From a virus: a DNA stretch of 21,161 nucleotides. Within the stretch, counting starts at the first letter, position 1, and each line of letters starts with the position of its first letter. The stretch covers positions 1 to 21,161 of IMG/VR virus record IMGVR_UViG_3300030110_003950; one strand, written 5' to 3'. Below the pieces are notes generated by a model. That model saw nothing but the letters and a program-made list of their open reading frames with translations, searched no databases and was not told the origin of the DNA. Below, piece by piece: positions 1,405-21,083 of this stretch. The position numbers and the translations under genes are program-made.

Positions 1405-3219
1405 ATGTCTGAATATAAAGACATCATTGGTACAAAGATTAAAAATTATACAACCAATCCTGATAATGCAGATACAGGACAGGTATGGTATAATGAAACG
1501 GATAATGTTTTAAAGTTTCAATTTGTTAATTTTAATACAGCTGGTTCATGGTCTAGTGGTGGAAATGTAAATACTGCAAGAGTAAATGTAGGTGCATCGG
1601 GTACAAAAACATCGAGTTTAGTTTTTGGTGGAAATACTCCACCAAACACGGCTAAAACAGAATCTTACGATGGAACAAGTTGGACAGAGGTAAACGATTT
1701 AAATACTGCAAGAAGGGCTTTAGGTGGTTCAGGTGTATCAAATACATCTGCATTAGCTTTTGGTGGTGTTGATCCATCGCCAGCAAACACTGGTGCTACA
1801 GAATTATGGGGTGGAACTAACTGGACTGAAGTAAATGATATGAATAATGCAAGACAACTTATAGTTGGTGGTGGAACAACAACTTCTACTTTAGCTTTTA
1901 GTGGATGGAATCCATATAAATCAGAAACAGAATCTTGGAATGGAACCAACTGGACTGAAGTAAATGATTTAAATGAAGCAAGATATTATGCAGCAGGAGC
2001 AGGTTCGTCTAACACTGAAGGTTTATGTTTTGGTGGAATTGATCAACCTGGTGGATCAAAAGTAGCAAACACAGAATCTTACAATGGAACAAACTGGACT
2101 GAAGTAAATAATTTAAATGCTACAAGACAAGCTTTCGCAGGTTTTGGATCAGCTACATCTGCGTTAGCTTTTGGTGATGAACCAGCTTCAGCAGCAACAG
2201 AATTATGGAATGGTACAAACTGGACTGAAGTAGCAGATTTAGCTACAGCTAGATTTGAATTAGGGGGAGCTGGACCTAGTAATGCAGGTGGTTTAGCTAT
2301 AAGTGGATCTGCTCCACCTTATACAGCAGCAACAGAAGAATGGTCAGGTGCAGGCACCGTTGCAGTCGGTGGTTGGTCTACCGTTAATAGTATGAATACA
2401 GCAAGATCAGATTTAGCAGGAGTAGGAATTTACACAGCAGCTTTAGCGGCTTTTGGAAATCCAACCCCTCCTGCAAATACTTCAGTTAAAACTGAATCTT
2501 ATAACGGATCAAATTGGACTGAAGTAAATGATGCAAACACCACAAGAAGACTTGTTTCAGGAGCAGGGACTCAAACTGCAGCAGTGGTTATGGGTGGAAG
2601 AAATGTTCCTAGCAGTAGTGTAAATAATACGGAAACTTGGAATGGAACGAACTGGACAGAGGTTAATGATTTAAATACTAGTAGAGGTTATACAGCAGGG
2701 TTCGGAACTAGCACAGCAGCTATATGTGCAGCTGGATTTGTTACTACAGCACAAGACGTAACAGAGTCTTGGAATGGAACAAATTGGACAGAGGTTAATG
2801 ATACCAATACGGCTAGATATAGTATGGTAGGTTTTGGATCACCGTATACTGCAGGAATAATAGGTGGTGGATCAACTCCTTCACGTACTGGTAATACAGA
2901 AACTTGGAATGGAACTAATTGGACAGAGGTTAATAATTTAAACACAGCTAGATCTTATATAGCTGGTTGTGGAACACAAACTGCAGGTTTAGGTTATGGT
3001 GGTAATTCTCCTGCAGATCCAGCGATTGTAGCGAATACAGAGGAATGGAACGGAACTAATTGGTCAGAACAAAATGATTTAAACAGTGCAGTTAACAGAC
3101 AAGGTGGAGCAGGGACAACAACTAATGCATTAAGTTTTGGAGGAACACCACCTCTTACATCACAAACAGAAGAATGGGGAATTCCATCATCAACAACTAA
3201 AACAATAAGCACAGATTAA
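1405..3219 (+). CDS. Kelch-like repeat tail fibre protein with two six-unit modules (604 aa)
   Basis: The first 45 or so residues (GTKIKNYTTNPDNADTGQ then VWYNETDNVLKFQ) match the N-terminus of the next fibre gene and look like a short virion-anchoring segment. The rest is 12 Kelch-like units in two modules of six, at 1549-2343 and 2374-3177. They are separated by the hinge EEWSGAGTVAVGGWST, which resembles the hinge in the upstream gene. The C-terminus TEEWGIPSSTTKTISTD is shared in style with both neighbours. A GGAGG at 1388-1392 sits about 12 bases before the ATG. The likely fold is a tandem pair of beta-propellers, and the likely role is host recognition at the tail. Units share near-identical DNA cores, so recombination between units and genes is plausible. 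Confidence 0.88.
   Translation: MSEYKDIIGTKIKNYTTNPDNADTGQVWYNETDNVLKFQFVNFNTAGSWSSGGNVNTARVNVGASGTKTSSLVFGGNTPPNTAKTESYDGTSWTEVNDLNTARRALGGSGVSNTSALAFGGVDPSPANTGATELWGGTNWTEVNDMNNARQLIVGGGTTTSTLAFSGWNPYKSETESWNGTNWTEVNDLNEARYYAAGAGSSNTEGLCFGGIDQPGGSKVANTESYNGTNWTEVNNLNATRQAFAGFGSATSALAFGDEPASAATELWNGTNWTEVADLATARFELGGAGPSNAGGLAISGSAPPYTAATEEWSGAGTVAVGGWSTVNSMNTARSDLAGVGIYTAALAAFGNPTPPANTSVKTESYNGSNWTEVNDANTTRRLVSGAGTQTAAVVMGGRNVPSSSVNNTETWNGTNWTEVNDLNTSRGYTAGFGTSTAAICAAGFVTTAQDVTESWNGTNWTEVNDTNTARYSMVGFGSPYTAGIIGGGSTPSRTGNTETWNGTNWTEVNNLNTARSYIAGCGTQTAGLGYGGNSPADPAIVANTEEWNGTNWSEQNDLNSAVNRQGGAGTTTNALSFGGTPPLTSQTEEWGIPSSTTKTISTD
1549..2343 (+). repeat. Six-unit Kelch-like module I of the 604-aa fibre
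   Basis: Units begin GNVNTAR, NDLNTAR, NDMNNAR, NDLNEAR, NNLNATR and ADLATAR. The module opens with SWSSGGN and closes with TEEWSGAG. It is about 265 residues, or roughly 44 per unit. Confidence 0.8.
2374..3177 (+). repeat. Six-unit Kelch-like module II of the 604-aa fibre
   Basis: Units begin NSMNTAR, NDANTTR, NDLNTSR, NDTNTAR, NNLNTAR and NDLNSAV. The module opens with GWSTVNS and closes with TEEWGIP. It is about 268 residues, again with six units. Confidence 0.8.
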
Positions 3220-3221
3220 TT

Positions 3222-4229
3222 ATGACAACATATAAAGTATTAAAAGGAACAAATATTCAAGCGGTATCATCTGATCCGTCTAATCCTATTGAAGGACAGG
3301 TTTGGTATAATACAACTGATAATGTTACAAAAGGTCAAGCGGTTACAACTGCAGGAGCTTGGTCTACAGCAACTAATATGAATACTGCCAGAACCACTTT
3401 AGCAGGTTCTAATGCTGGAAGTTACACAGCTGCATTAGGTTTTGGTGGTAACGGTCCTAGTGGTTATACAGCTGTAACAGAAAATTATAATGGAACTAAC
3501 TGGACAGAAGTTAACGATTTAAATACAGCTAGAGCATATCAGGTTGGCACTGGAACTTCTACGGCGGCTCTGTGCATAGCAGGTTATCGTACTCCTCCAG
3601 CAGGTAACGTGCAACTTGTTGAACAATGGAATGGAACTAACTGGACAGAAACAACTGATATAAACGGAACGCAAGGACAATCTTCTGGAGGTGCTGGATC
3701 ATCTACTGCAGCACTAAATTATGGTGGATTTGATTATTCTGTACCAGGTGTTTCTGCCAAAACAGAACAATGGAATGGATCAAACTGGACTGAAGTCAAT
3801 GATTTAAATGCTGGAAAATATTTGCTAGGAGGAAATGGTACTTCTTACACTAGTTGTTTAGCAGTAGGTGGAGATGCCGCTCCAGGAATTCGAGATACTG
3901 TAGAAGAATGGAATGGCACAAATTGGACTGAAGTAAACGATTTAAGTACTGCAAGAAGCGGAGTTACATGTATAGGAACTAATACAGAGGCTATGCTCGC
4001 TAGTGGTGGTGTTTTACACCCACCTTCAAAAACTGGTAAGACAGAAGAGTGGAATGGAACTAATTGGACTGAAGTAAACGATTTAAATACGGCAAGATCT
4101 AATTCGGCTGGATCAGGTTCAAGCACTGCAGGATTGCTTTTTGCTGGAAACGAACCTGCTAAATCAAACAAAACAGAAGAGTGGAATGCTGCAGGTGCGG
4201 GTCAAACAAGAACATTTACTGACTCGTAA
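3222..4229 (+). CDS. Kelch-like repeat tail fibre protein with one six-unit module (335 aa)
   Basis: The N-terminus (VLKGTNIQAVSSDPSNPIEG followed by QVWYNTTDNVTKGQ) is a clear paralogue of the N-terminus of the preceding fibre gene. It is followed by a single six-unit Kelch-like module at 3360-4184 and the closing tail TEEWNAAGAGQTRTFTDS. The ATG lies two bases after the preceding stop and has no recognisable Shine-Dalgarno sequence, so translation probably depends on ribosomes finishing the upstream gene. The role is probably a second, shorter receptor-binding or fibre subunit. With the two upstream genes it forms a paralogous fibre block, the last before the intergenic dyad at 4234-4263. 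Confidence 0.87.
   Translation: MTTYKVLKGTNIQAVSSDPSNPIEGQVWYNTTDNVTKGQAVTTAGAWSTATNMNTARTTLAGSNAGSYTAALGFGGNGPSGYTAVTENYNGTNWTEVNDLNTARAYQVGTGTSTAALCIAGYRTPPAGNVQLVEQWNGTNWTETTDINGTQGQSSGGAGSSTAALNYGGFDYSVPGVSAKTEQWNGSNWTEVNDLNAGKYLLGGNGTSYTSCLAVGGDAAPGIRDTVEEWNGTNWTEVNDLSTARSGVTCIGTNTEAMLASGGVLHPPSKTGKTEEWNGTNWTEVNDLNTARSNSAGSGSSTAGLLFAGNEPAKSNKTEEWNAAGAGQTRTFTDS
3360..4184 (+). repeat. Six-unit Kelch-like module in the 335-aa fibre
   Basis: Units begin TNMNTAR, NDLNTAR, TDINGTQ, NDLNAGK, NDLSTAR and NDLNTAR. The module opens with AWSTATN and closes with TEEWNAA. It is about 275 residues. The third and fourth units are the most diverged. Confidence 0.8.
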
Positions 4230-4285: not shown

Positions 4286-4963
4286 ATGAAAAAAGATGTT
4301 AAAGAAGTAATACAAGGTGAAGAACCACATTTAAATAATTTATTAACACAAGAAGATCTATTATCGTTTAAAGGTATGGTAGACGAGCTTCGTGACACAT
4401 GGACCAAGAAACAAATGTTTCGAACAGAAACAGAAGCAAGGTTTTCTGTATTACAAGATAATAGATATCCAACTAAAGCATCAAAGTATTGGCAATGTGT
4501 TAGAGAACAATCATCATACTTAGATAATCTTATGACCTTATCGTTTGACTATAGAAGAAACGAGGCAAAGATAACTTGGTTAGAAAAAAAGATTGATAAA
4601 GAAGAAGATGAATATAAGAAAACAAAATATCAAATAGATTTAGATGAATGTAGATTTGCAAAAGCTTCTATGGAAAAAGTTGCAAAACATAGAATGAGAG
4701 AGATTAAGATGTGGTCTAAATTAAAAAGTGAATTTAATGACGGATCATTTAATGACAAAGATGTTAATGTGCACCAATTAGAATCATATGGATTACAATA
4801 CCATGAAAAAGCTAAATCATTAAATGCAAACTCATCAGAGGCAGAAGTATTTAATGTAATGGGACAATTACAATCATTACAAAGAATTAGAAAGTCAGGT
4901 GAATTAGAAAGCAGTTACAAAGAAAGAGAACAACTTGAACAACATGGAAAACCAAAACCGTAA
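4286..4963 (+). CDS. Uncharacterised helical/coiled-coil protein (225 aa), first gene of the oxygenase cassette
   Basis: The protein is rich in Lys, Glu and Gln, with long predicted helices (about residues 85-150, containing LEKKIDKEEDEYKKTKYQID) that look like a coiled coil. No signal peptide, membrane segment or catalytic motif is visible. The start is supported by AAAGGA at 4273-4278, seven bases before the ATG. Its 3' end overlaps the sulfotransferase by 20 bases, so the two are probably translated together. I do not recognise the family. Because it heads the sulfotransferase and oxygenase genes, it could be a scaffold or adaptor for those enzymes, or an unrelated virion protein. Position is the only evidence for either. 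Confidence 0.8.
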   Translation: MKKDVKEVIQGEEPHLNNLLTQEDLLSFKGMVDELRDTWTKKQMFRTETEARFSVLQDNRYPTKASKYWQCVREQSSYLDNLMTLSFDYRRNEAKITWLEKKIDKEEDEYKKTKYQIDLDECRFAKASMEKVAKHRMREIKMWSKLKSEFNDGSFNDKDVNVHQLESYGLQYHEKAKSLNANSSEAEVFNVMGQLQSLQRIRKSGELESSYKEREQLEQHGKPKP

Positions 4964-5729
4964 GTTATTTTTCTTAATTGCATTACCTAGATCTGGAAAT
5001 ACTTTGTTTGCAAGTATTATAAATCAGAATCCTGAAATAGCAACAACGGCTAATTCTATAACCTTAGAAATAATGAAAGATTTATGTTTCTTAAAGACAA
5101 CAGATACTTTTCACAACTTTCCTGACCATAAATCGTTAGATAATGTATTAGATAATGTGTATAATTTATATTACAAAGATTGGCCACAACGAGTAATTAT
5201 AGATCGTGCACCTGTAATGACTGAAGAAAACTTTGAGTTAATGCAAAAACATTTTAAACCTCGTTTTAAATGTATCATTCTACTTAGGGATTTAATGGAT
5301 GTATTAGCTAGTTACATGCAGTGGTATACAGAAAACCCTAATTCATTTGTTAATAAATTTAATTTAGAAACAGATGAACAAAAATTATTAATGCTTATGA
5401 ATGATGAGGGTGCTATTGTAGAATCTTTAAAAGCAATTAAAAATTCATATAATTATCCCGATATATGTTATCATGTAAGATACGATGATGTAGTCATAAA
5501 TCCGGAACAAGAGTTTAAAAAAATTTATGATTTTATTGGAGAACCTTATTTTAATCATCGTTTTAATAATTTAGATCAAATAAAAATAAATGGTTTGTCT
5601 TACGATGATAGAGTAGTGGGTGATAATATGCATAAATTATTTGATGGACCTATTAGAAAAGTGTATAATCCTTACATAGAAAAAATACCAAAAAGAATTA
5701 GAGAAAGATATGAGCACATTAAAGTTTGA
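4944..5729 (+). CDS. Sulfotransferase-family protein (PAPS-dependent type)
   Basis: The N-terminus contains LFFLIALPRSGNTLFASII at about residues 8-26. LPRSGNT at residues 14-20 is the 5'-phosphosulfate-binding loop of PAPS sulfotransferases. CIILLRDLMDVLASYMQWY at about 110-128 is the matching 3'-phosphate-binding region, with Arg115 and Ser123 in the expected places. The expected reaction is transfer of sulfate from PAPS to a hydroxyl or amine acceptor, and the acceptor is unknown. I chose ATG 4944 (261 residues); a TTG at 4935, in frame three codons upstream, has a closer AAAGAGA and cannot be excluded. The gene overlaps the upstream gene by 20 bases and the downstream oxygenase by 20 bases. 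It is sited directly before five hydroxylase-type genes. Confidence 0.82.
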   Translation: MENQNRKLFFLIALPRSGNTLFASIINQNPEIATTANSITLEIMKDLCFLKTTDTFHNFPDHKSLDNVLDNVYNLYYKDWPQRVIIDRAPVMTEENFELMQKHFKPRFKCIILLRDLMDVLASYMQWYTENPNSFVNKFNLETDEQKLLMLMNDEGAIVESLKAIKNSYNYPDICYHVRYDDVVINPEQEFKKIYDFIGEPYFNHRFNNLDQIKINGLSYDDRVVGDNMHKLFDGPIRKVYNPYIEKIPKRIRERYEHIKV

Positions 5730-6369
5730 TTTTATATTCTTAGGACAATCAGTTTTAAAGTATCAGGTACCGCTTGATATATTTAACTCTATTAATTATA
5801 TTTATGAAACTAATTATCATAATTTGGCACCAGCTAATGATCAATTAGTTGGCAAAATAGAAAAAGAACACTCCTTATTTTATTCTGGTGAAGATGAATC
5901 TAAGATGAAAAATCATAATATGTTACCAAAAGATGTAACAAATTATTTTATGGAAATGTTTAAACATTATTTAGCATTTAATAAAATAAGAGATTATGAG
6001 CTACACCTTAATTCTATTTGGGTTAATGAAATGAAACAACACGAATACAACCCAGCACATATTCATAGGGGTACGTTATTTACAGGTCTATCTAGTGTTA
6101 TGATTTTAAAACTACCATCAACTTTTGGTAAAGAATATTCAAATGCTGAAGTGCCACAAAATGGCAGACTACAGATATTAGGTGCAGCTAATGGTCAATT
6201 TTCTAAAATAGATTATCAACCGCCAATGAATATTAGAGACTTTTACATCTTTCCATATGACATGAGGCACTGCGTATATCCATTTAATGGAACGGATGAG
6301 GTAAGACGAACTCTTGCTGCAAATTGTGATGTGCATTTTGATCCAATAAAAAACAGAGGTGCTACTTAA
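5710..6369 (+). CDS. 2OG-Fe(II) oxygenase-like protein 1 (219 aa)
   Basis: The C-terminal half carries the pattern WVNEMKQHEYNPAHIHRG (about residues 104-120), then GRLQILG, then FYIFPYDMRHCVYPF and RRTLAANCDV. His117/His119, His187 and Arg199 or Arg200 would be the iron and 2-oxoglutarate ligands of a jelly-roll dioxygenase. The layout matches the fourth oxygenase of the cassette, which has HLH, an FPAWLWHCVEPN segment and RISVSFN. The expected chemistry is oxygen-dependent hydroxylation with succinate and CO2 as products. The substrate is unknown. The ATG overlaps the end of the sulfotransferase gene by 20 bases with GAGAAAG just upstream, and its stop overlaps the next ATG (TAATG). It is less canonical than the other four because the acidic ligand is not obvious. 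Confidence 0.7.
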   Translation: MSTLKFDFIFLGQSVLKYQVPLDIFNSINYIYETNYHNLAPANDQLVGKIEKEHSLFYSGEDESKMKNHNMLPKDVTNYFMEMFKHYLAFNKIRDYELHLNSIWVNEMKQHEYNPAHIHRGTLFTGLSSVMILKLPSTFGKEYSNAEVPQNGRLQILGAANGQFSKIDYQPPMNIRDFYIFPYDMRHCVYPFNGTDEVRRTLAANCDVHFDPIKNRGAT

Positions 6370-6947
6370 TGGATAAAAAATATTATATAGATAATCATAT
6401 TGGTTTGTTTAAAAATTTTATGCCTAATAAATTAATAGAAGGTTATGTAGATTACTTTAATAAATGTGAACAAGAAGGTGCAGTCTATCCAAGAAAAGTA
6501 GATGAAACACTAGTATCAGACAATGGGATTGATACCATACGAGATTTAAATGTTTCTATGACTTATGTTAATAAACCTTTTATAGAAATGTTTTTTAACG
6601 AAGTATATCCATTATATGTAAAAAAATATTCTTATCTAAAACAATTAGCTAAACATTATATATTAGAAGTTAAGATACAGAAAACCAAAGTAGGTGAAGG
6701 TTATCATTCTTGGCATTGTGAAAATGCTGAGATGAAAGCAAGAAATAGAATACTAGCTTTTATGGTTTATCTTAATGATGTTACAGAAGGTGGAGAAACA
6801 GAATTTTTATATCAGAAGTGCAGATTTAAACCTGAAAAAAATACAATGTTAATATGGCCTGCAAATTTTACGCACGTTCATAGAGGAAACCCACCTCTAT
6901 CAAATGATAAATATATAATAACAGGATGGGTAGAATACGGATATTAA
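6369..6947 (+). CDS. 2OG-Fe(II) oxygenase 2, prolyl-4-hydroxylase-like (192 aa)
   Basis: The catalytic region GYHSWHCEN (residues 111-119) supplies His116 and an acidic residue, Glu118, in place of the usual Asp. It is followed by FMVYLNDVTEGGETEF (about 131-146), which is typical of P4H-type enzymes. IWPANFTHVHRGNPP then gives the distal His169, and DKYIITGW gives Lys181 where the 2-oxoglutarate-binding basic residue belongs. An HxE rather than HxD motif and Lys rather than Arg are acceptable variants within the superfamily. The substrate is unknown; the class hydroxylates proteins or small molecules. It is coupled to the upstream oxygenase through a one-base TAATG overlap and lies one base before the next gene. 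Confidence 0.85.
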   Translation: MDKKYYIDNHIGLFKNFMPNKLIEGYVDYFNKCEQEGAVYPRKVDETLVSDNGIDTIRDLNVSMTYVNKPFIEMFFNEVYPLYVKKYSYLKQLAKHYILEVKIQKTKVGEGYHSWHCENAEMKARNRILAFMVYLNDVTEGGETEFLYQKCRFKPEKNTMLIWPANFTHVHRGNPPLSNDKYIITGWVEYGY

Positions 6948-6948
6948 T

Positions 6949-7536
6949 ATGATAACAGAGCCACGTTGGAAATCTTATATAGTAGAAACTACAAACCCAA
7001 TCTTTACACCTAAACAATGTCAGATGATTATTCAAGCTGGACGTTCTGAACCTAGAAACAATGCAGAAGTTGGTCATGACAAAAAAGGAATTAAGGGTGG
7101 AATAATAAATACTAAAACAAGAACCTCACACATTAGTTGGATACCCTTTAAAAAAATGACACAGATGTATAAAGATATTGAACTTATTATGAAGACTACC
7201 AATGGTAATCATTTTGGTTTTGATGGAATGACTATAACTGAAATGGCACAATACACAGAATATCCAGAAGGAGGATTTTATGATTGGCACGTAGATAATG
7301 ATGTTAACTGTGCACACGAACCACCAGTTCGAAAAATATCTATGACTTGTCTGTTATCTCCTGAGAATGAATTTGAAGGTGGAGATCTAGAACTAATGGC
7401 TGAGGGTAAAGTTGCAAAAATAAAACAAGGACATGCTGTATTTTTTGCATCGTTTATTAGACACAGAGTAAAACCTGTTATACGTGGCAACAGAAAATCT
7501 TTAGTTATGTGGTTTGGAGGCACACCTTTTAAATGA
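6949..7536 (+). CDS. 2OG-Fe(II) oxygenase 3, PKHD/P4H-type (195 aa)
   Basis: All core elements are visible. YPEGGFYDWHVDND gives His114 and Asp116, FEGGDLEL is the conserved strand after the first ligands, and FASFIRHRVKPVIRGNRKSLVMWFGG gives His172 and the 2-oxoglutarate-binding Arg182. This is the most canonical of the five and is similar in outline to PKHD-type hydroxylases such as PiuC-like proteins. The target is unknown. The start ATG follows the preceding stop by one base, and its TGA overlaps the next start (ATGA), which implies coupled translation. Confidence 0.88.
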   Translation: MITEPRWKSYIVETTNPIFTPKQCQMIIQAGRSEPRNNAEVGHDKKGIKGGIINTKTRTSHISWIPFKKMTQMYKDIELIMKTTNGNHFGFDGMTITEMAQYTEYPEGGFYDWHVDNDVNCAHEPPVRKISMTCLLSPENEFEGGDLELMAEGKVAKIKQGHAVFFASFIRHRVKPVIRGNRKSLVMWFGGTPFK

Positions 7537-8123
7537 TTAAAGCTGCATACTTTCCAACTATTATATATGCTAAAGACGTTAATTTAGATAATAGACTTTT
7601 TGAAAGAGAAGTTCTTGCTTGGGCTGATAAAGACAAAGGAGTTACAAGAACTAATGTGAATGGTTGGCATAGCACAACTAACATGCATGAGATACCTGTA
7701 TTTAAACCATTGGTCGATGAATTATTTAAAATGCAAAGTGAAATATTTAAAGAAGAATGGTTAGATAGCGAACCTATTTTGGGAAATATGTGGGCCAACA
7801 TAAATCCACCAGGTGGTTATAATAGACCACACTTACACCCTAACTCTCATTTTAGTGGTGTGTATTATATTAAAGCGCCTAAAAACTCTGGACAGATAGT
7901 ATTTAATGAACCAAGATCTGGAGCACATATGGTTATGCCAAAAAGAAAAGAAAATAAAGGAGAACCACCTTCACATTTATGGAGAGAAGTTCGTGTAGAT
8001 CCAAGAGAGGGTAGAATAATTATATTTCCTGCATGGCTATGGCATTGTGTTGAACCAAACAAAAGTAATGATATAAGAATATCAGTATCATTTAATTTTA
8101 TACAGAAAGGATTTAATGTTTAA
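7533..8123 (+). CDS. 2OG-Fe(II) oxygenase 4, TIGR02466/2OG-FeII_Oxy_5-like (196 aa)
   Basis: The N-terminus (AAYFPTIIYAKDV) and the core NPPGGYNRPHLHPNSHFSGV (about residues 91-110) followed by YYIKAP are the hallmarks of the TIGR02466 family. HLH at 100-102, the distal His171 in FPAWLWHCVEPN and Arg182 in RISVSFNF are the expected metal and cosubstrate ligands. A GGAGG at 7515-7519 lies 13 bases before the start, inside the upstream gene. The chemistry is probably hydroxylation, with unknown substrate. Its sequence layout is like that of oxygenase 1, so those two may be distant paralogues, while 2, 3 and 5 are of different subtypes. Confidence 0.87.
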   Translation: MIKAAYFPTIIYAKDVNLDNRLFEREVLAWADKDKGVTRTNVNGWHSTTNMHEIPVFKPLVDELFKMQSEIFKEEWLDSEPILGNMWANINPPGGYNRPHLHPNSHFSGVYYIKAPKNSGQIVFNEPRSGAHMVMPKRKENKGEPPSHLWREVRVDPREGRIIIFPAWLWHCVEPNKSNDIRISVSFNFIQKGFNV

Positions 8124-8754
8124 ATATCACGTTATTAAAAAAGCTTTATCTTTTGAACTAGCTAATTTTATATTTAATTATTTTTTATTAAAAAGAGAGG
8201 CAGTTGATTTTATGTATAGACATAACATACATTCACAGTCCCCGATGCTTGGAACATGGACCGATCAACAAGTGCCTAATACATACTCTTGTTATGCTGA
8301 TTTTGTAATGGAAACATTATTAATGAAAATGCTACCTGTAATGAAAAAAGAAACAGGGTTGGATTTAATACCTACTTATTCTTATTCTAGAGCATATAAA
8401 AAAGGGGATATATTAAAAAGACACAAAGATAGACCAAGCTGTGAGATATCTACGACTCTAAACCTTGGTGGAGATCCTTGGCCTATATTTATCGATGGTA
8501 CGGGGTCTGACAACGTCATAGACGAGTATAAGAACATACATAAGCCCAATGCACCCAAAGGCACAAAAGTCGTGCTTGATGTGGGGGATATGTTGGTATA
8601 TAGTGGTTGCGAACTTGAACATTGGCGAGAGCCGTTTGAGGGCAACATTTGTGGTCAAGTATTTCTACATTATAACCATGTGAATGGCCCATTTGCTAGT
8701 AAGAATATGTTTGATGGAAGACCAAAGCTGGGTCTACCATCTTATGTAAAATAG
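8116..8754 (+). CDS. 2OG-Fe(II) oxygenase 5 (212 aa), compositionally mosaic
   Basis: The catalytic half reads SYSRAYKKGDILKRHKDRPS (about 90-109, with His103 and Asp105), followed by CEISTTLNL, then GDMLVYSGCELEHWREPFEG with distal His169, then QVFLHYNH. This pattern resembles phage-encoded oxygenases of the HKDRPSCEIS type. The 2-oxoglutarate-binding Arg is not obvious. AGAAAGG at 8104-8110 supports the ATG at 8116, and the gene overlaps the previous one by 8 bases. Base composition changes within the gene: by hand count about 20% GC around 8101-8220 and about 46% GC around 8521-8640. That suggests the catalytic part was acquired from a different genome or is under different codon selection. 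Confidence 0.83.
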   Translation: MFKYHVIKKALSFELANFIFNYFLLKREAVDFMYRHNIHSQSPMLGTWTDQQVPNTYSCYADFVMETLLMKMLPVMKKETGLDLIPTYSYSRAYKKGDILKRHKDRPSCEISTTLNLGGDPWPIFIDGTGSDNVIDEYKNIHKPNAPKGTKVVLDVGDMLVYSGCELEHWREPFEGNICGQVFLHYNHVNGPFASKNMFDGRPKLGLPSYVK

Positions 8755-8771
8755 TATTATAATGGAGTCAT

Positions 8772-10955
8772 ATGTTACAAAAGATAGGGTTTCAACCTGG
8801 AATCAATAAACAAATCACACCAACTGGAGCTGAAGGGCAATGGATTGATTGTGATAATGTTAGATTTAGATATGGTACACCTGAAAAGATAGGTGGTTGG
8901 AAACAATTAGGTGAAAGTAATTTGACTGGTGCAGGACGTGGTCTTCATCATTATGTAAATAGTTTAGGTAGAAAATACGCAATCATTGGTACAAACAGAA
9001 TTTTATATGCATACTCGGGTGGTGTGTTTTATGACATACATCCGATTAAATCTACAAACACGTTAACAAGTGCATTTACCACGACTAACGGATCATCCAC
9101 TGTTACAATAACATTTGGTAGCGCTCATGGTATTAGTGAGTCTGATATCGTATTGTTAGACAACTTTTCTACAATTACAGGTTCTAACTTTGGATCTTCT
9201 GATTTTGATAACAAAAAATTTATGGTGACCACTGTACCAACATCTACAACAATCACTATTACTATGCCATCAAACGAATCTGGATCTGGTGCAACTACAT
9301 CAGGTGGTATTAGAGTTCAACACTATTATACTGTAGGTCCAGCTGTACAAGCAAAAGGTTTTGGTTGGTCACTTGGAACTTGGGGTGGTGAAGAAGTAGG
9401 AGCTTTTACTACAACATTATCAGGTGCAATAAATGCATCAGCTACAACAGGTATTACACTAGCAGACCCCTCACAATTTCCAGACTCTGGTACAAACTTT
9501 GTTTTGATAGGTACAGAAGAAATATCATACACAGGTATAAATACATCTAACGAATTAACTGGTGTTACAAGAGGTGTAAGAAACACGACAGCTGCATCTC
9601 ATGGTGCAGGAGATACAGTAACTAGTACAGCCAATTATGTAGCGTGGGGTGAAGCCGCATCTGGTGACTTAGTATTAGAACCAGGTATGTGGTCATTAGA
9701 TAACTTTGGTGACAAAGCTATTTGTTTGATTCACGATAGCGCTGTATTTGAATGGAACTCTGCTGCATCAAATGCAACAGACACAAGAGCCACAATTATA
9801 TCTGGTGCACCAACAGCATCAAGACATATGTTAGTATCTACACCGGATAGACACTTAGTATTTTTTGGAACAGAAACAACGATTGGAGATACATCTACAC
9901 AAGATGATATGTTTGTAAGATTTTCAGATCAAGAAGATATAAATACGTATGTACCAACAGCAACTAATACAGCTGGTACACAAAGACTGGCCGACGGATC
10001 ACAGATCAGAGGAGCGATCAGAGGTCGTGATGCAATCTATGTTTGGACTGATACAGCATTATTCACACAACGTTTTGTTGGTCAACCATTTACGTTTGCG
10101 TTTGCACAAGTTGGAACTAACTGTGGACTCGTTGGACAGAATGCATGTGTAGAAGTTGATGGTGCTGCATACTGGATGTCAGAAAATGGTTTCTTTAGAT
10201 ATGCTGGTAAATTAGAATCACTACCTTGTTTAGTAGAAGATCACGTTTACGATAATATAAATTTAGATTCTGGTAATCAGATGGTATCAGCAGGATTAAA
10301 TAATTTGTTTGGTGAAGTTATTTGGTTTTATCCAACAACAGGGTCTTCTGTTGTAAATAGAATGGTTGCATATAATTATTTTGATTCATCACCTCAAAGA
10401 CCTGTATGGACAAATGGAACATTAGCTAGAACTATGTGGGAAGACTCTGCAGTATTTGGATCACCACATGCTTTAGAATACGATGCAGCTACAGATACAT
10501 CTTTTGATGTTGTGGGCAACACAGAAGGTAGAACAACATACTATCAACATGAAACAGGAACTGATCAAGTTAAAGGTGGAACTGTTACAGCTATTACAGC
10601 AAACATTGCTTCTGGAGATTTTGATATAAGTCAAAGAAGAAGTGCATTAGGTCAAACAACAGGTGCTGCTGATCTTAGAGGAGATGGAGAGTTTATAATG
10701 AAAATAAGAAGATTTATACCTGACTTTATATCTCAAACTGGTAATACACAAGTTACATTACAATTAAGAGACTTTCCAAATGATAGTCAGGCAAGCTCAG
10801 CATTAGGACCATTTACTGTTTCATCCTCTACTAAAAAAGTAGATACACGTGCAAGAGCGAGAGCTATTGCATTAAAAGTAGAAAACACAGCGTCAGCTCA
10901 AAGTTGGAAGCTAGGAACTTTTAGATTAGACATACAACCGGATGGACGTAGATAA
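8772..10955 (+). CDS. Large beta-rich tail/DNA-stabilisation-type virion protein (727 aa)
   Basis: The N-terminus has the pattern GFQPGINKQITPTGAEGQWI followed by DCDNVRFRYGTPEKIGGWKQ, seen at the start of many podovirus head-tail or tail proteins. Residues about 95-180 (SSTVTITFGSAHGISESDIV and ITITMPSNESG) and about 209-284 (LSGAINASATTGITLADPSQ through EEISYTG, LTGVTRG, AASHGAGDTV) look like two small beta domains inserted in the main fold. The later part resembles a propeller-like hub (ASRHMLVSTPDRHLVFFGTE, VEVDGAAYWMSENGFFRYAG). I infer a tail nozzle or P22 gp10-like stabilisation role. GGAG at 8764-8767 precedes the ATG by four bases, and the stop overlaps the next ATG. Confidence 0.75.
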   Translation: MLQKIGFQPGINKQITPTGAEGQWIDCDNVRFRYGTPEKIGGWKQLGESNLTGAGRGLHHYVNSLGRKYAIIGTNRILYAYSGGVFYDIHPIKSTNTLTSAFTTTNGSSTVTITFGSAHGISESDIVLLDNFSTITGSNFGSSDFDNKKFMVTTVPTSTTITITMPSNESGSGATTSGGIRVQHYYTVGPAVQAKGFGWSLGTWGGEEVGAFTTTLSGAINASATTGITLADPSQFPDSGTNFVLIGTEEISYTGINTSNELTGVTRGVRNTTAASHGAGDTVTSTANYVAWGEAASGDLVLEPGMWSLDNFGDKAICLIHDSAVFEWNSAASNATDTRATIISGAPTASRHMLVSTPDRHLVFFGTETTIGDTSTQDDMFVRFSDQEDINTYVPTATNTAGTQRLADGSQIRGAIRGRDAIYVWTDTALFTQRFVGQPFTFAFAQVGTNCGLVGQNACVEVDGAAYWMSENGFFRYAGKLESLPCLVEDHVYDNINLDSGNQMVSAGLNNLFGEVIWFYPTTGSSVVNRMVAYNYFDSSPQRPVWTNGTLARTMWEDSAVFGSPHALEYDAATDTSFDVVGNTEGRTTYYQHETGTDQVKGGTVTAITANIASGDFDISQRRSALGQTTGAADLRGDGEFIMKIRRFIPDFISQTGNTQVTLQLRDFPNDSQASSALGPFTVSSSTKKVDTRARARAIALKVENTASAQSWKLGTFRLDIQPDGRR

Positions 10956-18998: not shown

Positions 18999-19177
18999 TG
19001 GCGAGAAAATCGGCACTACAAAAAATTGAATCACACGAGAAGCTTTGCAGGATAATGCAAAAGCAAACCTTTGAACAAATCAAAGAAATGCAAGATAGAA
19101 TTAAAAGATTAGAATATTGGATAGTTGGAGGTATGGGAGCTGTCCTTATAACTTTACTAACAGACATCTCAAAATAA
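18998..19177 (+). CDS. Holin candidate, single membrane segment (59 aa)
   Basis: The ATG overlaps the stop of the large virion gene. About 38 charged, helical residues (ARKSALQKIESHEKLCRIMQ and KQTFEQIKEMQDRIKRLE) are followed by one hydrophobic segment, YWIVGGMGAVLITLLT (about residues 40-55), and a short tail DISK. A coiled-coil head with one C-terminal membrane helix is the layout of XhlA-type or small holin-like lysis proteins. It lies immediately before the endolysin with a one-base overlap (19175-19179), the classic lysis pairing. A different membrane accessory of lysis (for example a pinholin or spanin-like part) cannot be excluded. Confidence 0.72.
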   Translation: MARKSALQKIESHEKLCRIMQKQTFEQIKEMQDRIKRLEYWIVGGMGAVLITLLTDISK

Positions 19178-19656
19178 TGGAACTTACACGTAATTTTACT
19201 TTAGAAGAGTTAACCAAATCGGACACTGCAATACGAAAAGGTATTAATAATAATCCTAATGCAGAGCAGATAGAAAAATTAAAAACACTTTGTGAAAAAA
19301 TATTACAGCCAGTACGTGATCACTTTGGCAGAGTTAAGGTGACTAGCGGATTTCGTTCACCTGAATTATGTGTTGCTATTGGCAGCTCTATCAATTCACA
19401 GCACGCCAAAGCTGAGGCCGCAGATTTCGAAGTTGTAGGCGTGGACAACTGTGAGCTCGCTGACTGGATACATAGAGAATTAGAATGGGATCAATTGATC
19501 CTCGAGTACTATGTTCCTGGCGAACCTAACTCGGGGTGGATACACTGCAGTTTTACAGAAGGCATGCCAAGAAAATCTTTTTTACATGCATTTCGACAAG
19601 AGGGTAAAACAAAATACAAACCTATTCTTGGTAAAGCAAAAGATATATTTGTTTAA
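19177..19656 (+). CDS. Endolysin, D-Ala-D-Ala carboxypeptidase-like peptidase M15 (159 aa)
   Basis: Motifs of the M15 zinc-peptidase family are visible. SGFRS (57-61) is followed by SQHAKAEAADFE with His76 and Asp83, and WIHCSF gives the third zinc ligand His123. The N-terminal MELTRNFTLEELTKSDTAIR is the usual start of phage M15_3 endolysins. There is no signal peptide, so release presumably relies on the upstream holin candidate. I chose ATG 19177, which overlaps the holin stop; an alternative upstream start would add 20 residues inside the holin gene. The catalytic stretch is locally GC-rich (about 48% by hand count in 19381-19500). The 3' end overlaps the convergent helicase gene by four bases. 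Confidence 0.9.
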   Translation: MELTRNFTLEELTKSDTAIRKGINNNPNAEQIEKLKTLCEKILQPVRDHFGRVKVTSGFRSPELCVAIGSSINSQHAKAEAADFEVVGVDNCELADWIHRELEWDQLILEYYVPGEPNSGWIHCSFTEGMPRKSFLHAFRQEGKTKYKPILGKAKDIFV

Positions 19657-21083
19657 ATCCAATCTCTTAACTCTTCACCTAACACTTCAGATGCAATATT
19701 AATTTTTTTACGTAATGACTCTTGTATTTTTTCATCAACAGTATCTTCTGCAATAATATCTATATAAGTTACATTTTTTTTCTGTCCAATACGGTGTGCT
19801 CTGTCTTCTGACTGTAAACGCTTCTCTAGGTCATATCCGTTAGAATAGTAAATTACGGTGTTTGCAGCCGTCAAAGTTATCCCATAGCCGCCCGTAGACG
19901 GCGTTCCTACCATAAACCGGCACTTAGGGTCGGACTGAAATTGACGTATATTATCTTGTCTTTCTTCTTGTGGTGTGAGTCCATAATAACTAACTACGGA
20001 TCCCGGACCATAAATTTTTTCGATTTCATCTACAATATTTTTTATATCTTTTTGCCAGTGGCCCCATATAATAGCTTTACCTTCTGTTTCACTTAACACA
20101 TCTACTAACTCTGTAATTCTATTACTTTTTATTTCTTGTGTAGTGCCATCATCAGCAACAAAATGACCACAAGTTATTTGTTGTAATCTCATTAACTGTG
20201 TAATCACTGTCATAGTAGAAGTAACTTTACCATTCAAAGTAGCAAGAGCTGTTTTTTTCATTTCATCATAAACTTTTTGTTGTTCTTTACTTAAAGTAAT
20301 ATGACGTTTAATCCAATTTTTAGGAGGCAAGTCTAAACAATCTTCTTTTAACACTCTGTAAGAAAAATCTTGTAATTTATCTGATAACTCTGAAAGATTT
20401 TGAAAAGCATGTACAACCTGTATTGTTCTACCTCTTACATGCATAGATTTCATAACAGCATATCTATTTCTAAAAGAATAATAAGATGCATGATCTAAAA
20501 GATAAGGATCTAAAAAATAACATTGAGTATATAAATCTAAAGGATTTTTTGTAACAGGAGACCCTGTCATTATTCTCCTATATTTTGCATATTCGCTAAG
20601 ATCAATAATGTTTTTAGTTCTTTTAGCTGTTGGTGTTTTAATTGTTGTAGATTCATCAATAGCCATTAATACTTTGTGAGAGTTTAAAAATTTAGTTGCA
20701 AACTTAATACCTTTTTCTGTGCTAAACGCTTCAACATTCATAACTAAAATATGTAAAGCAGTTTCTATTTCAAACAATGACTCTAATTTTTCTTGTTGTT
20801 TTTTTGTAATATTAGGCTGCCATAATACAGTCACATTTTCTATATGATTTGGTAGGTGTGTAGGTATCTCTTGCTCATACCAGGTTTTTATAACACCTTT
20901 TGGAGCAATAATAAGTGCACCATCTATTTTGCCTTTGTCATAAAGCATGGCCATGTTATCAATTAAAACTTTTGTTTTACCTGTACCCATTTCCATAAAG
21001 TACGCGTACGTTTCTTTATTCCATGACTTTTCTAAAGCAGTCAACTGATGCTTGTATGGCTTTGTCTTAAATTTATAATTCAT
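19653..21083 (-). CDS. SNF2-family (superfamily 2) DNA helicase/ATPase (476 aa)
   Basis: The start KTKPYKHQLTALEKSW is the Q-like motif. EMGTGKT (31-37) is Walker A, AIDEST (141-146) is motif II in a DEST form, and TGSPVTKNP (173-181) is motif III. GTPSTGGYGITLTAANTVIY and QSEDRAHRIGQ (424-434) are motifs V and VI, so all main helicase motifs are intact. SNF2-type phage helicases probably remodel or translocate on DNA during replication or repair; the exact role here is unknown. It is the only gene on the minus strand and is convergent with the endolysin. The ATG has AGAAAG directly against it, too close for a normal ribosome site, which fits a short leader from the promoter at 21099-21127. 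Confidence 0.9.
   Translation of the reverse strand: MNYKFKTKPYKHQLTALEKSWNKETYAYFMEMGTGKTKVLIDNMAMLYDKGKIDGALIIAPKGVIKTWYEQEIPTHLPNHIENVTVLWQPNITKKQQEKLESLFEIETALHILVMNVEAFSTEKGIKFATKFLNSHKVLMAIDESTTIKTPTAKRTKNIIDLSEYAKYRRIMTGSPVTKNPLDLYTQCYFLDPYLLDHASYYSFRNRYAVMKSMHVRGRTIQVVHAFQNLSELSDKLQDFSYRVLKEDCLDLPPKNWIKRHITLSKEQQKVYDEMKKTALATLNGKVTSTMTVITQLMRLQQITCGHFVADDGTTQEIKSNRITELVDVLSETEGKAIIWGHWQKDIKNIVDEIEKIYGPGSVVSYYGLTPQEERQDNIRQFQSDPKCRFMVGTPSTGGYGITLTAANTVIYYSNGYDLEKRLQSEDRAHRIGQKKNVTYIDIIAEDTVDEKIQESLRKKINIASEVLGEELRDWI

Follow-up and report, generated by a model that had tools for sequence, protein, structure and literature searches.

Among the 'auxiliary' genes of marine phages that lack an explanation, those for 2OG-Fe(II) oxygenases rank with the commonest, and a single genome can carry up to 24 of them (PMC9602691). 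As the closest described system, Wittmers et al. 2022 reported co-located 2OG-Fe(II) oxygenases and 'ferrochelatases' in HTVC023P-type pelagiphages, where the genes lie nearby though not adjacent and were tied to heme/iron (PMC9599517). Head-to-tail runs are found in the T4-like phages HTVC008M (five genes, gp68-72), Mosig EXVC030M (a comparable run) and S-CREM1 (nine); they include a relative of the gene termed Ox5 below and, in HTVC008M and Mosig, lie inside or beside the structural module (PMC9599517, PMC9964418). Five oxygenases in a row are therefore not unusual, contrary to what the earlier note on this DNA had supposed.

The window, i.e. the whole 21,161 nt stretch of viral DNA analysed here, appears to derive from an uncultured marine podovirus related to the HTVC023P-type phages, judged from its tail protein, which is 44–49% identical to those of 023Pt_psg01, HTVC027P and HTVC023P. 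It carries one sulfotransferase (ST) and five 2OG-Fe(II) oxygenases (Ox1–Ox5) head to tail, and coordinates and profile matches confirmed both this arrangement and its placement between fibre genes (k604 and k335 upstream) and a tail gene (Tail727 downstream), as initially noted (Table 1). Neighbouring genes overlap by 20 nt (G1/ST and ST/Ox1), 1 nt (Ox1/Ox2), 4 nt (Ox3/Ox4) and 8 nt (Ox4/Ox5), while Ox2 and Ox3 are separated by 1 nt and Ox5 ends 17 nt before the tail gene. The locus shares with the HTVC023P-type phages its gene families, a 'ferrochelatase' near 2OG oxygenases and a related tail protein, but differs from their description in strict adjacency, in kelch fibres, in a 'ferrochelatase' with a predicted 2OG fold and in a proposed substrate residue. 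HTVC008M, Mosig and S-CREM1, in contrast, are myoviruses with other members in another order, and no kelch fibre was found near their runs.

Table 1. Coordinates and assignments of the cassette genes and their neighbours in the window.
Feature	Position	Strand	Assignment	Evidence
k604	1405..3219	+	fibre gene	kelch-type repeats; tblastn conservation
k335	3222..4229	+	fibre gene	N-terminal domain + kelch beta-propeller (predicted)
G1	4286..4963	+	conserved gene	phrog_1409 E=9e-6
ST	4944..5729	+	Sulfotransfer_3; optional	PF13469 E=1.2e-14, 55.5 bits
Ox1	5710..6369	+	PF13759 type, HxH...H; core	PF13759 E=4.6e-8, 33.8 bits
Ox2	6369..6947	+	prolyl-4-hydroxylase-like, HxE...H...K; optional	PF13640 E=1.3e-13, 52.2 bits
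Ox3	6949..7536	+	PKHD/PiuC-like, HxD...H...R; core	PF13640 E=3e-15, 57.3 bits
Ox4	7533..8123	+	TIGR02466-type, HxH...H...R; core	PF13759 E=5e-29, 101.1 bits; TIGR02466 E=1e-41
Ox5	8116..8754	+	2OG-type oxygenase fold (predicted)	phrog_2954 E=5e-48; AF2/Foldseek
Tail727	8772..10955	+	virion structural / stabilization-type protein; downstream boundary	phrog_3287 E=4e-99

All five proteins fall in the 2OG-Fe(II) superfamily, Ox1–Ox4 by profiles, each exceeding the Pfam cut-off of 27 bits, and Ox5 by its modelled fold. The metal- and 2OG-binding residues are conserved as HxE/H/K in Ox2 and HxD/H/R in Ox3, while Ox1 and Ox4 carry HxH/H/R like PDB 3bvc, which matches Ox4 (E=2e-17); further PDB matches are the prolyl-4-hydroxylases (P4H) 3itq/5hv0 for Ox2 (E=1e-6) and 3dkq for Ox3 (E=8e-7). 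The subtypes, at first described as dissimilar, are not all independent, since Ox2 and Ox3 belong to one Pfam family (PF13640) and Ox1 and Ox4 are detectably related (profile-profile E=1e-4), the only clear link in a comparison based on shallow alignments. ST has the profile and motifs predicted for a PAPS-dependent sulfotransferase, with PRSGNTL and LRxLxDVxAS (5'/3' phosphosulfate) conserved. Metal-site residues are conserved to at least 98% and purifying selection acts on every cassette gene (median dN/dS 0.10–0.32), which together argue that these are real genes and, as far as sequence tells, active-looking ones.

Ox5 is named 'ferrochelatase' in PHROGs, in GenBank and in one paper. A Pfam search returned no family at E<=1 for it, ferrochelatase included. 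Its AlphaFold2 model (mean pLDDT 82.7) gave 604 Foldseek matches at E<=0.001, and all 50 PDB matches listed belong to the 2OG-type oxygenase superfamily, with a Pseudomonas prolyl-4-hydroxylase (acting on EF-Tu, 4iw3) as the best fold match among them (E=2.5e-8) and no ferrochelatase fold. The ferrochelatase assignment was thus dropped; the model indicates a 2OG-type oxygenase (double-stranded beta-helix) fold. H103-x-D105 and H169 are invariant, whereas Q181 sits about 12 residues on, where R/K is usual, the nearest basic residue being R171. The heme/iron reading of such clusters rests on this misleading label, which is now removed.

For conservation, several queries each matched more than 590 IMG/VR loci, of which 80 per query were fetched. 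Since ST had served as the query for part of the first sample, its frequency was counted again using only loci fetched with Ox5. The cassette is a conserved operon-like unit between fibre genes and tail gene, in the constant order fibres-G1-[ST]-Ox1-[Ox2]-Ox3-Ox4-Ox5-tail; G1 of relatives (53–97% identity by tblastn) overlaps ST or Ox1. Ox1, Ox3, Ox4 and Ox5 form a core kept together in 92/92 Ox5-fetched loci. Among these, ST (25/92) and Ox2 (34/92) are optional and independent of each other (ST in 9/34 loci with and 16/58 without Ox2), and ST was never seen without oxygenases in the relatives examined. In a few loci, ST and Ox1 flank a nucleotide kinase with a weak match to APS kinase. Two unrelated fibre types adjoin such cassettes, the second being Gly-rich with an NTPPVxPPQG motif (33/33 for this type). 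Phages that lack kelch fibres likewise have relatives of Ox5, Ox3 and Ox4, so the core enzymes would need another or a more general substrate.

What is new here is that the fibres of this locus are predicted kelch beta-propellers and that Ox2 co-varies almost perfectly with a particular blade residue, the second Asn of the hairpin W-N-G-T-N-W (position 5, hence N5). The k335 model (mean pLDDT 91.9) indicates a kelch propeller, its best Foldseek match being the kelch domain of NS1-BP (E=6e-16) and a profile match KLHL3 (E=3e-29); its N5 residues (aa 93, 140, 188, 234 and 281) each close a hairpin turn that reads NGTN in all blades but one (NGSN). In k604, N5 is present in 9/10 W/Y-N-G-T-N-W anchors.

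An exploratory scan (20 residues, 2 labels) brought up the signal, which was then tested on loci outside the discovery set. Within the discovery set, the N5 fraction was 0.40–1.00 in the 31 loci with Ox2, one exception apart, and at most 0.25 in the 44 without; among 88 new loci, means were 0.74 with Ox2 (62/65 at least 0.35) and 0.05 without (0/23). Over all 189 loci, N5 fibres accompany Ox2 in 98/102 cases and its absence in 0/87, and the fibre paralogs all behave alike. Ox2 and N5 changed about 12 and 13 times on a G1+Ox1+Ox3 tree and 18 and 19 times on the G1 tree, no tree being exact because phages recombine. Pagel's test gave LR 88 (p=3e-18) for Ox2-N5, compared to weaker associations of ST-N5 (LR 21) and Ox2-ST (LR 17). 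N5 was the top positive of 276 residue signals (AUC 0.986; +0.71 over 48 phylogenetic pairs), and in seven flanking proteins the best column-residue paired difference was 0.65 vs 0.94 for N5. Repeat positions N10 and T4 also track Ox2, less strongly, and within Ox2-bearing genomes N5 repeats co-select W1, N2 and T4. AT-bias as a source of extra Asn was rejected, GC of the fibre region being equal (39.5 vs 39.7%). Although Ox2 is P4H-like in sequence, fibre proline content does not track it, and in the variable B-C loops neither proline content nor PP motifs showed an association; Ox4 type, a sixth oxygenase (Ox6) and ParB-like inserts (the last two with 9 pairs each) gave nothing like N5 at fibre positions. 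None of the isolates carries the kelch fibre.

A co-variation of this kind could also arise if fibres and Ox2 moved together on one recombining stretch, N5 marking a fibre lineage instead of a substrate. The two lie within a few kb and Ox2 changes least often (8 times) when mapped onto the tree of Ox1, its direct neighbour, yet we consider this unlikely, since no match to Ox2 is seen for the intervening G1 (18 changes; its best column reaches a difference of 0.47, N5 one of 0.94), ST is closer to the fibres and follows N5 less well, one turn position switches in all paralogs, and N5 goes with its enriched W1-N2-T4 context inside Ox2-bearing genomes. That Ox2 acts on a host molecule, both Ox2 and N5 fitting one host type or habitat, appears quite improbable: such a common cause would have to explain several independent switches of one residue in most blades of every fibre, while other features that depend on the host, among them the variable loops, give no such Ox2 signal.

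The earlier note had further suggested that the oxygenases create hydroxyl groups which ST then sulfates. Its first half gains from the Ox2-fibre co-variation, which points to the fibre as the Ox2 substrate; the coupling itself we rate as having only a slim chance. ST was never encountered without oxygenases and the kinase beside it in a few loci could help to make PAPS, but ST is present in 25/92 loci only, irrespective of Ox2 in that sample, no fibre residue follows it comparably (largest listed paired difference 0.15 vs 0.71), and its weak PDB resemblances include Tyr sulfotransferases, which do not need prior hydroxylation. Tyrosine sulfation itself, examined via fibre tyrosine content, was discarded as well (raw p=1e-5, p=0.86 after phylogenetic pairing). 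Equally remote appears a role in auxiliary metabolism, with oxygenases drawing down 2-oxoglutarate or modifying host metabolites, as proposed for cyanophages (Sullivan 2010, PMC3037559): oxygenases do abound in phages with different fibres, but one enzyme would be enough to consume 2OG, whereas an unvarying set of several enzymes, each with a conserved active site of its own, sits here inside a structural module, and Ox2 co-varies with the fibre.

We therefore propose that the run is probably a fibre-linked protein-modification cassette in which Ox2 hydroxylates N5, or a neighbour in the turn, on the phage's own fibre, as the co-variation, being replicated, phylogenetically paired and above flanking columns, is best read as that of an own-fibre hydroxylase. 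Ox2 would be made together with the virion proteins and would act on Asn5 of most blades, or on a turn neighbour with N5 as recognition residue; at lower confidence, the four core oxygenases may hydroxylate other virion-protein sites and ST may add an optional modification. The variable B-C loops, which would bind the receptor, are located apart from the C-D turn in a kelch propeller, so that the modified turn may rather alter adhesin stability or packing. FIH (ankyrin repeats) and AspH (EGF-like repeats) hydroxylate repeat proteins at one Asn/Asp of a turn, repeat after repeat, and the proposed Ox2 action would be analogous to theirs, although these are eukaryotic enzymes acting on host proteins and Ox2, P4H-like by sequence, lies outside the JmjC and AspH families. 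Against an Asn hydroxylase stands that 3itq and 5hv0, the closest solved sequence relatives of Ox2, are bacterial prolyl hydroxylases. Their substrates are prolines; the residue co-varying with Ox2 is Asn, and Ox2 has HxE. More tentatively, and on balance doubtfully, each oxygenase may hydroxylate its own defined virion-adhesin site (Ox2 the kelch Asn5) in a stepwise decoration of the fibre by dedicated enzymes, orthologous and additional members serving the Gly-rich NTPPVxPPQG fibre.

Ox2-N5, predicted from co-variation, is the first indication of a specific substrate for this cassette. Such residue-level co-variation points away from host metabolism and towards virion maturation as the setting of these oxygenase genes and, if the reading is confirmed, some marine phage fibres would bear hydroxylations that are missed by sequence-based models of host range and adhesins.

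In the window, the sulfotransferase gene (ST) and the five oxygenase genes (Ox1–Ox5) lie head to tail, with overlaps of 1–20 nt or a 1-nt gap at the junctions, confirming the positions and order given in the earlier note. ST passed the Pfam cut-off for Sulfotransfer_3. Against a minimum of four of five proteins set beforehand, profile search placed Ox1–Ox4 in 2OG-Fe(II) families; Ox5 gave no Pfam match and was placed by fold, all 50 PDB matches listed for its AlphaFold2 model (pLDDT 82.7) being 2OG-type oxygenases. The HxD...H site of Ox5 is invariant among its relatives, with Gln where the 2OG-binding Arg/Lys usually stands. Metal-site and PAPS-motif residues are conserved in relatives, and median dN/dS is 0.10–0.32 across the cassette genes. 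Since neither a ferrochelatase profile in Pfam nor such a fold among the PDB matches listed was found for Ox5, the name 'ferrochelatase' that it bears in databases and GenBank is very likely wrong. The PHROG names on 2OG oxygenases of the window ('ferrochelatase', 'DNA endonuclease V', 'DNA endonuclease'; matches to phrog_2954, phrog_3531, phrog_274 and phrog_2297) likewise look like wrong labels spread into GenBank phage records.

Features of the window and of collected phage loci (L-numbers)
Feature	Location	Strand	Remark
Fibre gene k335	window 3222-4229		kelch fibre
G1	window 4286-4963		conserved gene
ST	window 4944-5729	+	sulfotransferase
Ox1–Ox5	window 5710-8754	+	oxygenases; 8116-8754 among the PHROG matches
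Tail727	window 8772-10955		tail gene
Endolysin	window 19117-19656	+	phrog_894; ordinary phage gene, right end
SNF2-type helicase	window 19653-21083	-	PF00176; ordinary phage gene, right end
Sixth oxygenase	L015:9499-9993		PF13759 type, between Ox4 and Ox5; 16 more loci
ParB_N-like small proteins	L346:1855-2187, L071:5021-5458		between Ox4 and Ox5; ~37 loci
Small P-loop kinase	L234:719-1105		between ST and Ox1; four loci
Tryptophan halogenase (or halogenase-like)	L164 gp79, L166 ORF69, L236:3740-5365		adjoining or within oxygenase clusters of several different phages

Relatives in IMG/VR share the order fibres-G1-[ST]-Ox1-[Ox2]-Ox3-Ox4-Ox5-Tail727. Checking conservation, as the earlier note had proposed, we found the core oxygenases together in constant order: in loci fetched via Ox5 and spanning G1 to Ox5, Ox1, Ox3 and Ox4 occur in 92 of 92, while Ox2 (34/92) and ST (25/92) are optional and independent of each other. 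Loci in all counts are fragments, at most 80 per query among the matches listed, and phages recombine. Some carry inserts, namely extra oxygenases, ParB-like genes, a methyltransferase or the small kinase. Besides the sixth oxygenase, the extra ones (L114, L139, L149) include PF13640 types and, in L149, a single Aspartyl/Asparaginyl beta-hydroxylase (PF05118). The kinase is a weak match to APS kinase (PF01583, 24.5 bits vs a 21.1 cut-off) and could supply PAPS to the sulfotransferase. The phage collection yielded no isolate of this kelch-fibre lineage; Tail727 is 44–49% identical to HTVC023P-type phages, and a SAR11 host is therefore possible.

The fibre genes directly upstream encode repeats of ~46 residues with [WY]-N-G-T-N-W-T-E-V-N-D-L-N. 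The k335 profile matches KLHL3 (E=3e-29). In its model (pLDDT 91.9), k335 is a kelch beta-propeller, which Foldseek matched to kelch domains (E=6e-16). By DSSP on this model, N5, the Asn at position 5 of the blade hairpin W-N-G-T-N-W, ends a four-residue turn joining two strands of the blade; a variable Pro-containing segment lies after GG in the B–C loop, on the face by which kelch domains usually bind.

An exploratory composition scan with phylogenetic pairing showed higher Asn content in fibre repeats of Ox2-carrying phages, the excess mapping to repeat position 5. In loci not used for discovery, collected with three other queries, the mean N5 fraction was 0.74 with Ox2 (at least 0.35 in 62/65) vs 0.05 without (0/23). 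When the 189 nonredundant loci are taken together, 0.35 is reached in 98/102 with Ox2 vs 0/87 without. The four exceptions (L361, L278, L367 and L055, the last with an Ox2 that looks intact) may have acquired Ox2 recently, with fibres yet to adapt. Joint switches number ~12 on the G1+Ox1+Ox3 tree, at least 11 with weak nodes collapsed, and a dependent model was preferred over an independent one (LR 88, p=3e-18); its fitted rates have N5 arising only where Ox2 is present and disappearing very fast where Ox2 is absent. N5 was the top positive signal among 276 position-residue features (AUC 0.986, paired +0.71), seen at each of the three fibre positions that precede G1; with ST or Ox4 type as labels, these features gave no comparable signal. 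Seven flanking proteins, which together offer several thousand column-residue features, gave a paired difference of 0.65 at best, vs 0.94 for N5; G1, between fibres and Ox2, reached 0.47. No GC difference was found with vs without Ox2. Inside Ox2-carrying genomes, W1, N2 and T4 are enriched in N5 repeats vs repeats without N5, which looks like a recognition motif.

With fold, gene order and co-variation established, the simplest account is that Ox2 would modify the fibre of its own phage in the W-N-G-T-N-W turn, N5 itself being the likeliest residue; reaction, site, timing and benefit we infer. The earlier note had proposed, as an idea to test, that the oxygenases hydroxylate a virion protein such as the fibre or a host surface molecule, which ST then sulfates. 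Its fibre substrate gains support for Ox2. For subsequent sulfation, weak ST–N5 and Ox2–ST associations appear in the pooled, ST-enriched set, and ST was never seen without the oxygenase cassette among the relatives collected; the optional ST, its independence of Ox2 in the loci fetched via Ox5 and the lack of an ST signal comparable to N5 leave this possible step unsupported.

Nor is five in a row very unusual, as had been thought: HTVC008M has a run of five, one an Ox5 relative, Mosig a comparable run adjoining tail fibre and neck genes, and S-CREM1 nine. Published totals are ten for S-CREM1 and 24 for S-SCSM1, and for HTVC023P-type pelagiphages a 2022 study (PMC9599517) reports eight 2OG oxygenases that are not orthologous to one another and lie together with 'ferrochelatases'. 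In the literature on these clusters we found neither the strict order seen here nor any substrate described.

The case for fibre modification is less strong for the four core enzymes (Ox1, Ox3–Ox5), since Ox3, Ox4 and Ox5 have relatives that also adjoin a different, Gly-rich fibre type with a repeated NTPPV[ST]PPQG motif, plausibly a prolyl-hydroxylase site. Such proteins occur in L160 (HTVC023P gp59-62), L161 (HTVC033P gp62, gp64), L163 and L407-L486. An oxygenase lies within 5 kb of the motif in all 33 loci with enough downstream sequence. The general rule may therefore be 'oxygenases beside adhesins', with differing substrates.
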